A stretch of 64,000 nt of DNA from Oscillibacter valericigenes. Its GTDB lineage: Bacteria > Bacillota > Clostridia > Oscillospirales > Oscillospiraceae. The position numbers were made by a program, and so were the translations under genes. Location of the stretch: assembly GCF_021531915.1 (NCBI RefSeq), contig NZ_JAFBIV010000002.1, positions 124,001 to 188,000 on the forward strand. Direction: 5' to 3'. The notes under the pieces are model-generated. The model worked only from the letters and a program-made list of their open reading frames with translations. It was not told the origin of the DNA and searched no databases. Below, in pieces: positions 36,808 to 61,584 of the stretch (its first letter is position 1; each line of letters begins with the position of its first letter).

Positions 36808-37398
36808 TCAATAGCGGCGCACAACAGCGGCTACTTTGCCCAAAATCTGAGCATAGGTACCATCAATGGGAGAATACGCCTCGTTCTCCGGCAACAGCCA
36901 GATATGCCCGTTCTGCTTGGAAAATCGCTTGACTGTAGCCTCGTCTTCGATCATGGCGACCACGATCTCACCGTTGCTGCAGGTCTGCTGGCGGCGTACT
37001 ACCACCAGATCATCCGGCAGGATACCAGCGTTCAGCATGGACTCACCTCGGACACGAAGGGCAAAATACTCGTCCCCATGGCCACCGGTGTCAAAAGTGA
37101 GATAATCCTCAATGCACTCCTCCGCCAGGATCGGGCTGCCTGCCGCCACGTTGCCCACAATCGGAATCTTATCCTCCGGCACAGCGGGCGCCGTCAATGT
37201 AATGGCCCGGCCCTTACCCGCGCCTTTTTCGATGACTCCCGCTTCCTCCAAATGCTTCAGATGGAAATGTACTGTGGACGGGGATTTCAGCCCAACCGCC
37301 TCGCCGATCTCCCGCACAGAGGGTGGATAACCCTGTTCCCGGATGCAGGATGCGATGTATTCATAGATCCTCTGCTGCATATTGGTCAGTTCCGCCAT
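36808..37398 (-). CDS. lexA: LexA repressor of the SOS response
   Basis: The ATG at 37398 has AGGAGGT 5 bases upstream and gives 196 residues. The N-terminal winged helix (YPPSVREIGEAVGLKSPSTVHFHL) binds SOS boxes. The C-terminal self-cleavage domain has the A86-G87 scissile bond in NVAAGSP, S120 in RGESM and K157 in ATVKRF. A GAAC-N4-GTTT box overlaps its own -35, so autorepression is expected. It is convergent with sigK. Confidence 0.96.
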   Translation of the reverse strand: MAELTNMQQRIYEYIASCIREQGYPPSVREIGEAVGLKSPSTVHFHLKHLEEAGVIEKGAGKGRAITLTAPAVPEDKIPIVGNVAAGSPILAEECIEDYLTFDTGGHGDEYFALRVRGESMLNAGILPDDLVVVRRQQTCSNGEIVVAMIEDEATVKRFSKQNGHIWLLPENEAYSPIDGTYAQILGKVAAVVRRY

Positions 37399-46955: not shown

Positions 46956-46974
46956 TGTTATCGTTCCTCCTTCC

Positions 46975-47334: not shown

Positions 47335-47348
47335 ATCGGCACACCTCC

Positions 47349-47894: not shown

Positions 47895-47909
47895 TGTTAA
47901 ATACCCTCC

Positions 47910-48308
47910 TTACCAGACGAATGCCAGGACCTCGCCGCCGACATGCAGCTCGCGAGCCTTCTTGTCGGTCATGACGCCCTTGGACGTAGAAATGATGGCG
48001 ATACCCAGGCCACGCAGAACGCGGGGCAGCTCATCGGCGCCCACATAGACGCGCAGGCCGGGCTTGGAAACGCGGCGCAGACCGGTGATGACCTTCTCTT
48101 TGCCGGCGTTGTACTTCAGCGTGATGTGGATCATGCCCTGGAGGCCGTCGTCCACCACGGTGAAGCTCTTGATGTAGCCCTCGTCCAGCAGGATCTGAGC
48201 AATGCTCTTCTTCATGTTGGAAGCGGGAACATCAACGGTGTCGTGCTTGGCACTGTTGGCGTTGCGGATGCGGGTCAGCATATCCGCAACAGGATCGGTG
48301 ATATGCAT
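47910..48308 (-). CDS. rpsH: Ribosomal protein S8
   Basis: The 132-residue product starts [20 protein letters not shown] and ends [22 protein letters not shown], both conserved. S8 binds the central domain of 16S rRNA. AGGAGG precedes the ATG. It is separated from rpsN by about 310 bases that include a separate promoter, which is unusual in the spc operon. Confidence 0.98.
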
Positions 48309-48325
48309 GGTTAAATCCTCCTATT

Positions 48326-48427
48326 TTAGAGTTGCGGCCCAATGGACCGCTGCGGCAGCGAGGTATCATGGCCAATGGGGTAGTCTGCTCGCGCATGTGT
48401 GCCCAATTGGTCATGACCTTTCGCCAT
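48326..48427 (-). CDS. Possible 33-residue leader peptide before rpsH
   Basis: An ATG at 48427 with AGGTGA 6 bases upstream opens a 33-codon frame (MAKGHDQLGTHARADYPIGH...) ending 17 bases before the rpsH start. It lies in the leader RNA made from the 48558-48586 promoter. No family is recognised, and the frame overlaps an inverted repeat, so it may be fortuitous. Confidence 0.2.
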   Translation of the reverse strand: MAKGHDQLGTHARADYPIGHDTSLPQRSIGPQL

Positions 48428-48557
48428 CCGAATCACCTAAGCCCCATATCAAAGGCTTTTGGTTACAAAAAGTTAGGTCGCCAGCTCCTGTTTCGTGAGA
48501 AAACATTTCTGAACATGGCGCAGTGGGCACATTTCCGTAGAAATGTCCCACTTTTCT

Positions 48558-48586
48558 AGCGTACCAGAAGAACCGAGGTTCGTCAA
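48558..48586 (-). promoter_or_regulatory. Internal promoter of the spc operon
   Basis: The minus strand reads -35 TTGACG (48581-48586), 17 bases ending TGG, and -10 TACGCT (48558-48563) with an extended TGn. It would start a leader of about 240 nt in front of rpsH. Confidence 0.7.
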
Positions 48587-48617
48587 GTGTTTTTCGCTGC
48601 GCCGATTCAATTTTTTC

Positions 48618-48803
48618 TTAGAAAGAAGCCTTGCGGACACCGGGGATCTCGCCCTTGTAGGCCAGCTCCCGGAAGCAGATACGGCAGACACCGTAGTCAC
48701 GCAGGTAAGCGTGGGGACGGCCGCACAGCTTGCAGCGGTTGTACTTGCGAGTGGAGAACTTCGCAGGGGCCTGCTGCTTCAGGATCATAGATTTCTTAGC
48801 CAT
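48618..48803 (-). CDS. rpsN: Ribosomal protein S14, zinc-binding type Z
   Basis: The 61-residue length and the ligands [20 protein letters not shown] identify the zinc-binding short form of S14. The C-terminus is [16 protein letters not shown]. It follows rplE by 14 bases and is the last gene before the interrupted part of the spc operon. Confidence 0.97.
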
Positions 48804-48817
48804 TCTTCTCTTCCTCC

Positions 48818-49357
48818 TTAGCGGGCGAAGGGAGCGCCGACCTGCTTGAGCAGCTCGCGGGCCTCTTCATCGGTTTCAGCAGTGGTGCAGATGACCACGT
48901 CCATGCCGCGGATCTTGTCGATCTTGTCGTACTCGATCTCGGGGAAGATCAGCTGCTCCTTGATGCCCAGGGCATAGTTGCCGCGGCCGTCGAAGGAGTT
49001 GGGGTTGATGCCCTGGAAGTCACGGACACGGGGCAGAGCCACGTTGAACAGACGGTCCAGGAACTCCCACATCTTGTCGCCGCGGAGAGTGACCTTGGCG
49101 CCGATGGGCATGTCCTCACGCAGCTTGAAGTTAGCGATGGACTTGCGGGCCTTGGTGATAACGGGCTTCTGACCGGTGATCTTGCTCAGGTCGCCCACCA
49201 CGTTCTCCAGGACCTTGGAGTTTTCACGAGCCTCGCCGCAGCCCACGTTCACGACAACCTTGTCGATCTTGGGGATCTGCATGACGCTCTTGTAGCCGAA
49301 CTGCTTCATCAGAGCGGGTGCGACTTCGGCATTGTACAGTTCTTTCATTCTAGCCAT
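48818..49357 (-). CDS. rplE: Ribosomal protein L5
   Basis: The 179-residue product has the conserved [39 protein letters not shown] and [17 protein letters not shown] stretches. L5 contacts 5S rRNA and P-site tRNA. It lies between rplX and rpsN. Confidence 0.98.
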
Positions 49358-49376
49358 TTTGCCTTACGCTCCTTTC

Positions 49377-49688: not shown

Positions 49689-49703
49689 TACTCGTTGCCC
49701 TCC

Positions 49704-50072: not shown

Positions 50073-50086
50073 ACTTCGGCACCTCC

Positions 50087-55502: not shown

Positions 55503-55798
55503 GGTTTGTTTCCTCCTGATTTCGTAGGTAGTTTGACGCAGTCTCGACGACCTACGGCGAGAGAGTTTTTCTATACGCTTATCCGTGCGTATCATTCCCG
55601 CTCATGAAAAATACCGGCATAAGGAATGCTCCTCCGGCCGGTACCAGATCATGGCGTGGCGATATACGCGACGTACAGATCATCTCAGCCGCCCGATTAT
55701 CGGACATACTCCCCGGAAGTTACCTCCTCTCGGAGCAATCTCCCGGTTCATCGCAGTATCCACACGGCGGGACATGCCCTTCCCGCGCGGACTTACTT
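55503..55798 (-). ncRNA. Long 5' leader of the S10 operon
   Basis: Between the predicted transcription start (about 55792) and rpsJ lie about 290 nt. They contain several inverted repeats, for example CCGGTAC / GTACCGG-type pairing near 55615-55645 and GTAGGT ... ACCTAC at about 55525-55555 just before the ribosome site. Such leaders can carry ribosomal-protein autoregulation; I recognise no known family. A 42-codon frame starting at about 55715 has no properly spaced ribosome site. Confidence 0.5.
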
Positions 55799-60879: not shown

Positions 60880-61584
60880 ATGAACAAGCTGAATCTCACC
60901 GACCTGCTGAAAAGCAACGCCTACCCCGGCCGGGGCATCGTCCTGGGCCGCAGTGCCGACAACAAGTACGCCGTGGCCGCCTATTTCATCATGGGCCGCA
61001 GCGAGAACTCCCGGAACCGGGTGTTCACCGTCACCGAGGACGGCATCCGCACCGAGGCCCACGATCCCTCCAAGATGACCGATCCCAGCCTCATCATCTA
61101 TCATCCCGTCCGCCAAGTGGGCAACGACCTGATCGTCACCAATGGCGACCAGACCGACACCATCCGGGACGGCCTGCTGTCCGGCCGGAGCTTCGGTCAG
61201 GCACTGCACACCCGGGAGTTCGAACCGGACGGTCCCAACTACACCCCCCGCATCTCCGGTATCCTCTGCGAAAACGGCAGCTTCCGCCTGTCCATCCTGA
61301 AGTCCGCCGACGGTGATCCCTCCTGCTGCCACCGGTTCTTCTACACCTATGACCACCCTCTGGCCGGCGAGGGCCGCTTTATTCACACCTACATGGGCGA
61401 CGGCTCTCCCCTTCCCTCCTTCGAGGGTGAGCCGGAGCGGGTCATCCTGGACGCTCCCGGTGCCGAGGCTCTCGCGGAGCAGATGTGGAATGCCCTGAAC
61501 CCGGACAATAAGGTCTCCCTGTTCGTGCGGTACACCGATCTGGCCACCGGCGAATATCAGCAGGTCATCCGCAACAAATTCTGA
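60880..61584 (+). CDS. IMP cyclohydrolase, PurO-like
   Basis: The ATG at 60880 has AAGGAGA upstream and gives 234 residues. The start YPGRGIVLGRSADNKYAVAAYFIMGRSENSRNRVF and the TNGDQTDTI segment, read in separate parts, match the archaeal-type IMP cyclohydrolase family that closes the purine ring of FAICAR to IMP. Many Clostridia have this form. It follows the DUF45 gene on the same strand and ends at a strong terminator shared with a convergent gene. Confidence 0.88.
   Translation: MNKLNLTDLLKSNAYPGRGIVLGRSADNKYAVAAYFIMGRSENSRNRVFTVTEDGIRTEAHDPSKMTDPSLIIYHPVRQVGNDLIVTNGDQTDTIRDGLLSGRSFGQALHTREFEPDGPNYTPRISGILCENGSFRLSILKSADGDPSCCHRFFYTYDHPLAGEGRFIHTYMGDGSPLPSFEGEPERVILDAPGAEALAEQMWNALNPDNKVSLFVRYTDLATGEYQQVIRNKF

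Follow-up and report, generated by a model that had tools for sequence, protein, structure and literature searches.

Why should 309 nt separate rpsN from rpsH in an spc operon whose neighbouring genes stand 14-19 nt apart? The question concerns the stretch of DNA analysed here as a whole, hereafter the window, which comprises 64,000 nt of Oscillibacter valericigenes (assembly GCF_021531915.1, contig NZ_JAFBIV010000002.1, positions 124,001-188,000, forward strand) and carries rpsN and rpsH on its minus strand. In E. coli, the spc mRNA holds a mimic of the S8 site of 16S rRNA and is subject to feedback by S8, as described in the portions of PMC10931766 and PMC4176348 available to us. The same portions of PMC10931766 describe such control by S8 for both E. 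coli and V. cholerae, and call the regulation of spc in B. subtilis and other species unknown. A preliminary description of this locus proposed a promoter-bearing insertion that uncouples the downstream half of the operon, and raised an S8-responsive leader as a possibility.

The gap consists of two modules

The gap between the end of rpsN (48618) and the start of rpsH (48308, minus strand) is indeed oversized, as the preliminary description had it. The 14-19 nt of its seven neighbours come from the ORF list, in which the three genes upstream of rplE were placed from ORF position and size only; the set is exclusive of the gaps flanking rpmD. Calling the gap an insertion, however, does not fit the comparison with relatives, among which a long rpsN-rpsH gap is common: in the 119 loci of the first 123 where it could be measured, it came to at least 100 nt in 104 (with a maximum of 1057 nt) and to 0-77 nt in the other 15. 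Aligning these gaps revealed that the approximately 130 nt adjoining rpsH are widely conserved, throughout the family, and that the upstream part varies by lineage, the upstream module of the window being specific to one clade. The gap is therefore not a single insertion but is made up of two modules, a leader RNA adjoining rpsH and a promoter-like module upstream of it (Table 1). Taken as RNA (48304-48625), it folds better than 100 out of 100 shuffled sequences, with a z-score of -5.2.

Table 1. Features in and around the rpsN-rpsH gap, in window coordinates (A1 and A3, leader alignments; R1, R2 and R3, search models).
Feature	Position	Strand	Remarks
rpsN (S14, zinc type)	48618-48803	minus	NCBIfam NF005974 type Z S14, E 6.7e-34; upstream of the gap
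rpsH (S8), proposed ligand	47910-48308	minus	NCBIfam NF001109, E 1.5e-57; directly downstream of the gap
Nearby gaps	48804-48817, 49358-49376, 49689-49703, 50073-50086, 47895-47909, 47335-47348, 46956-46974		ORF list
Upstream module: inverted repeat around promoter-like site and hairpin	48517-48603	minus	model R3
Inverted repeat arms	GGCGCA 48603-48598, TGCGCC 48522-48517	minus	
-35-like TTGACG	48581-48586	minus	11/11 loci, which were recognised by TTGACG itself
-10-like TACGCT, preceded by TGG	48558-48563	minus	TGG and TAnnnT in 11/11
Hairpin at presumed transcript start, GTGGGACATTTC-N4-GAAATGTGCCCAC	48523-48551	minus	individual folds 11/11
P0 hairpin with conserved loop UUUGAUAUGG	48439-48458	minus	35/56 loci, selected by the loop pattern
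S8-type leader RNA, putative, whole structured element	48309-48435	minus	R1 126.1 bits; R2 100.9 bits, E 5.5e-20 (window sequence in both training sets)
P1 helix, 5' strand CGGATGGCGA	48421-48430	minus	pairs with 48353-48361; 9/9 outer pairs changed on both sides (A3)
S8 core, 5' strand AAGGUC	48415-48420	minus	last five are equivalents of A595, 596, G597, U598, C599
P2 helix and apical loop, above S8 core	48368-48414	minus	compensatory pairs
S8 core, 3' strand GAUACC	48362-48367	minus	equivalents of G639, A640, U641, A642 (48364), C643, 644
P1 helix, 3' strand TCGCTGCCG	48353-48361	minus	compensatory changes (A1, A3)
P3 hairpin GCGGUCC-N3-GGGCCGC	48334-48350	minus	both-sided changes at 4/5 pairs; pairing in 98.4% of cells (A3)
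P4, tentative: AACUCU (48333-48328) can pair with Shine-Dalgarno AGGAGG (48322-48317)	48317-48333	minus	

The leader centre resembles the S8 site of 16S helix 21

To judge from its sequence, the GGUC/GAUACC centre of the leader is a copy of the S8 site in helix 21 (h21) of 16S rRNA. In E. coli, h21 has AAGUC at 595-599 and GAUACU at 639-644, and the 16S gene of the window's own assembly, found on a different contig of this draft genome, reads AAGUC and GAAACU. Some distant members of the leader family carry AAGUC and GAUACU, identical to the E. coli rRNA. According to the text of PMC4176348 available to us, S8 recognition depends on an invariant A642 and on the triples (G597-C643)-U641 and A595-(A596-U644). 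In A3, which holds 89 leaders, the equivalents of A642 and C643 are invariant (A and C, respectively, in 89/89), and that of G597 is G in 86, the other three being gaps. The 598-640 pair is U-A in 72 leaders and C-G in 17; position 641 is U in 70, A in 18 and G in one, and follows this pair, with U in 70 of the 72 U-A leaders and A in 16 of the 17 with C-G. Two of the recognition features are thus present in the leader: A642 never varies, and the G597-C643 pair is accompanied at 641 by U or its equivalent. For 596-644, G-C was found in 80 leaders and A-U in six, with two unpaired and one gap, amounting to a standard pair in 86/89, a count of letters that carries no triple geometry. The comparison with the rRNA site that the preliminary description called for came out positive.

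A scan of both strands of the 64 kb for the core within a helix returned the leader and one other place (60929-61017), with 0.0014 expected per 309 nt of one strand (20 shuffles), using a pattern that was tuned post hoc, after the leader had been seen. A first scan with different settings missed the leader and found four other places, since it demanded four pairs stacked immediately on the core, against three in the window. The weight of the case for an S8 site is carried by conservation, and not by this post hoc scan.

The structure around the core is supported by covariation

Covariation supports the structure as that of a ribosomal leader in two alignments. In A1, an ordinary MAFFT alignment of 29 leaders in which one predicted pair had been swapped for two rRNA-like core pairs before counting, 98.9% of cells are paired and 11 of the 30 pairs changed on both sides; its covariation score was reached by 0/500 shuffles and its number of changed pairs by 4/500, and sliding the structure along the alignment lowers pairing to 31-50%. 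In A3, 96.3% of cells are paired and 23/30 pairs changed on both sides, with 0/500 shuffles reaching any of the five measures, although these counts lean towards the model, as its 89 sequences were fitted to it. The sources of A3 came from a stricter search, being selected as already matching or brought in by the model. As such, the covariation test of the leader in relatives suggested earlier is positive in both alignments. Over 99 sources, R1 gave 114 matches, of which 85 are in sense (one per source) and 29 are weak antisense copies of the same hairpins; 14 of these sources had no sense match.

When the 89 leaders were folded singly, the core helix appeared in 78, P3 in 83 and P4 in 59. P4 is 98.9% paired in A3, but none of its pairs changed on both sides, and we treat this small hairpin, predicted in 59/89 folds, as tentative. 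The P0 hairpin, 5' of the leader, is often preceded by a U-run; a pseudoknot between its loop and P2 was weighed by eye and dropped. No terminator-like site was found in a scan of 48200-48900.

The preliminary description had also pointed to a frame of 33 codons before rpsH. This ATG frame (48427-48326, minus) is open, but lies inside the hairpins of the leader and is preceded by a weak AGGTG (CGGTG in locus L010), and an ORF of at least 20 codons occurs at this site in just three of the 11 loci examined: the window, L009 and L010. We therefore rejected it as a gene.

The leader stands before rpsH in most of the family

Among 49 fetched family loci (L128-L176, which include some training sequences and the window itself), the leader adjoins the rpsH start in all 49, its match ending anywhere from 4 nt short of the start to 1 nt past it. 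In L170, at a contig end, the last matched position is 1603 and S8 begins with the next one, 1604. The leader is thus found just upstream of a ribosomal protein gene in 49/49, and we assume that it is present in the mRNA.

All of the following counts include the window's own genome. R1 gave 21 matches over 295 genomes of the order, all within the window's family. R2, a model built from A3, matched in 206 of 300 family genomes, which corresponds to 165/189 of those of good quality and to 83 of 106 genera; G243, G275 and G317 each matched twice. Over 299 genomes of the phylum it gave four matches, two within the family and two weak ones (E 0.03 and 0.09), at whose loci neither S8 nor S14 was found. 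Within the genus, 50 of 86 genomes matched, one of them (G058) with a second, weaker match on another contig. The leader is hence not missing from close relatives, since 39 of the 42 good-quality genus genomes carry it and rpsH was likewise not matched in the other three (G023, G077 and G081). At the level of the family, 24 good-quality genomes had no R2 match, four of which were followed up: in G104 rpsH was not found, G132 and G138 have weak leaders in a local search (E 0.002 and 7e-5), and G146 showed none in that search, nor did G128, a genome with more than 5% contamination.

By eye, the rpsN-rpsH gaps of some other relatives are alike within three groups, namely L106, L111, L112 and L114 (three of them titled Agathobaculum), L113 and L121, and L110 and L120. 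R2 matched none of these gaps, which may hold different leaders at the same spot.

S8 as the likely ligand

What could such a leader do? We consider it likely that 48309-48435 is an autoregulatory ribosomal leader, with its strands in rRNA order, that would bind S8 and repress at the level of translation. Through it, S8 can probably limit its own production. S8 in excess of free 16S rRNA would bind the helix-21-like core, at which the equivalent of A642 is position 48364, and once bound would hold the P1/P2 and P3 helix stack immediately 5' of the rpsH start. The Shine-Dalgarno sequence would lie within or beside the tentative hairpin P4, and 30S subunits would be kept from loading, lowering translation of rpsH and, through the tight spacing, of the genes that follow. 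It counts against this reading that the calculated pairing gives no sign of a switch at the Shine-Dalgarno itself, an idea that we rejected: its mean unpaired probability over the 89 sequences is 0.12 when free, and 0.126 versus 0.125 with the S8 helix locked or forbidden, so that no such switch is predicted. The proposed ligand, S8 of the window, is identical to E. coli S8 at 66 of 131 aligned positions and keeps STSKGVMTD, including the STSKG stretch; by this protein, the closest named relatives are Oscillibacter and other Oscillospiraceae. On sequence grounds, the earlier guess of an S8-responsive leader thus finds support, with binding by S8 itself as the presumptive step.

It is unlikely, in our estimation, that this is a genuine ribosomal leader with another ligand or another level of action, be it a different ribosomal protein, or S8 acting on transcript stability or transcription. 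The lack of both a terminator-like site in the scanned region and a calculated Shine-Dalgarno switch leaves room for another level of action, and the P0 hairpin with its conserved loop could serve a second factor; set against this, the core that never varies corresponds to the S8 site of rRNA, and at every one of the fetched family loci the leader adjoins the S8 gene.

The upstream module of the window's clade

The promoter-like sites of the upstream module exist as the preliminary description gave them, and TTGACG, the 17-nt spacer, TGG and TAnnnT are all kept in 11/11 module loci, a conservation that goes beyond chance. As a promoter by score alone, the site is unremarkable: its hexamers match the consensus at 5/6 and 3/6 positions, a score that 259 of 1000 shuffled versions of the first 180 nt (dinucleotides preserved) attain as well, which is no better than chance, and a consensus promoter scan of 48200-48900 listed none. 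Over 86 genus genomes, R3, a model built from the 11 module loci, recovered 11 rpsN-rpsH loci, every one of which it had been trained on, and a single weak match besides, in G055 (E 0.001), on a contig other than that of G055's leader.

The hairpin at the presumed start and the long-range inverted repeat, both noted earlier, are present as well. The hairpin folds in all 11 loci, with both-sided changes at 4 of its 7 counted apical pairs. The arms of the repeat are paired in every locus, having switched from G-C to A-U in four, and the outer stem is closed in 11/11 when the module is folded singly. For the whole module, hairpin 1 included, the measures are mixed: the covariation score was reached by 0/500 shuffles, the count of both-sided changes by 205/500 and that of pair types by all 500. 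Hairpin 1, which would span the promoter, was rejected: by alignment columns 71% of its cells are paired, so that it is unsupported there. When single folds are cut at the right arm, most of the 11 loci do show a hairpin across the promoter, with a register that varies. Control of LexA type was likewise discarded, as GAAC-N4-GTTC between the -35 and -10 sites occurs in five of the 11 loci (L001, L002, L003, L009 and L010) and is lost in the others; lexA itself is located at 36814-37398 (minus) of the window, and GGAACAAATGTTTGC upstream of it resembles a LexA box. A permissive search against Rfam 15 yielded a lone lncRNA match below threshold (13.5 bits, E 1.4), which covers the upstream module.

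Since the promoter-like site is conserved in the window's clade, separate transcription of the downstream half of the operon is plausible. There, the module would probably give the half from rpsH onward a transcript of its own, with the leader included; were transcription to begin near 48551, this transcript would have the hairpin at its 5' terminus. We nevertheless regard it as very improbable that the locus is in essence a promoter-bearing insertion uncoupling the downstream half, to which RNA structure is secondary. The features are retained in every module locus of this one clade and the module was not found in the remaining genus genomes save for the weak match, as an insertion might suggest; the leader, however, is far more widely spread than the module, the hexamer score is matched by shuffles, and no further copy of the module turned up in the genome. 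Its absence from most genomes of the genus, moreover, speaks partly against the earlier picture.

By eye, a hairpin-rich element with ends like TCTTTTTCC...CGAAAAAATC stands upstream of the leader in L005, L007, L021, L030, L033, L034, L037 and L051, and L013 and L016 have something similar-looking. The upstream module as a mobile element was rejected, having no second genome copy and two other matches that are 17 nt long (E 1.6). Although such different hairpin-rich sequences upstream of the leader in other relatives would suit a non-regulatory relic or mobile element, palindromic DNA stranded between genes, this is scarcely credible for the leader in view of its covariation, its fixed position and its usually single match per genome.

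Comparison with known systems

The spc operon of E. coli already provides an example of a ribosomal leader built as a mimic of the S8 site of rRNA; the leader RNA before rpsH appears to be new. We count it as such because Rfam 15 gave no family at gathering score on the leader, permissive search included, because S8 is missing from the leaders in Table 1 of PMC7247131, a survey of 2020, and because the available text of PMC10931766 regards spc regulation in other species as unknown, a judgement whose scope is the material named here and not supplementary lists. Rfam 15 had taken in families of the Weinberg collection, according to the portion of PMC7779021 at hand. In the main text, as available, of PMC8040213, PMC11109978, PMC2864571, PMC6429828 and PMC2704228, rpsH is absent. 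No paper listed in our literature search reported an S8 leader other than the E. coli type; supplementary tables may hold unnamed candidates.

The S10-Clostridia (RF03136) and S4-Clostridia (RF03140) leaders are similar in being structured, in standing before ribosomal genes and in occurring in the same bacterial class, and differ in the genes that they precede; RF03140, named in the part of PMC7779021 available to us, is likened to our leader by description only. The window itself contains an S10-Clostridia leader at 55689-55759 (minus), with 41.6 bits against a gathering score of 35.1.

With 16S h21, the leader shares G597, U598-A640 or its C-G version, C599-G639, U or A at 641, A642 and C643, in identical order. 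It differs from h21 in that 596-644 is mostly G-C and in its flanking helices, and the Oscillibacter-type core of the window carries an additional A in its 5' strand, where P1 meets the 596-644 pair. With the S8 operator of E. coli, it has in common a mimic of the S8 site on spc mRNA, the proposed ligand and the logic of feedback. Its location is another one: the E. coli operator lies at the rplE start, whereas the leader stands before rpsH and ends upstream of the start codon; in the window the gap before rplE is 19 nt, and the leader does not fit the definition of an rplE-start operator. Nor does it fall into the sequence and structure family of that operator, as a search of the E. coli spc region (L179) with R2 came up empty. 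Furthermore, the leader keeps the strand order of h21, whereas the E. coli operator pairs A+80/A+81 with U+11, its strands apparently being swapped, as we infer from the numbering in the available part of PMC4176348.

Did the family then arrive at S8 control by its own route? We give an even chance to the view that the Oscillospiraceae evolved an S8 autoregulatory RNA independent of that of E. coli, an unpermuted copy of h21 before rpsH that places the part of spc from rpsH on under S8, with the leaders of relatives being unrelated, the control point old and the RNA repeatedly replaced. Our leader offers a concrete and testable answer for a large bacterial family and, if S8 indeed binds it, a second natural mimic of the S8 rRNA site, differently ordered from that of E. 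coli, which is useful for comparing how a protein recognises its RNA.
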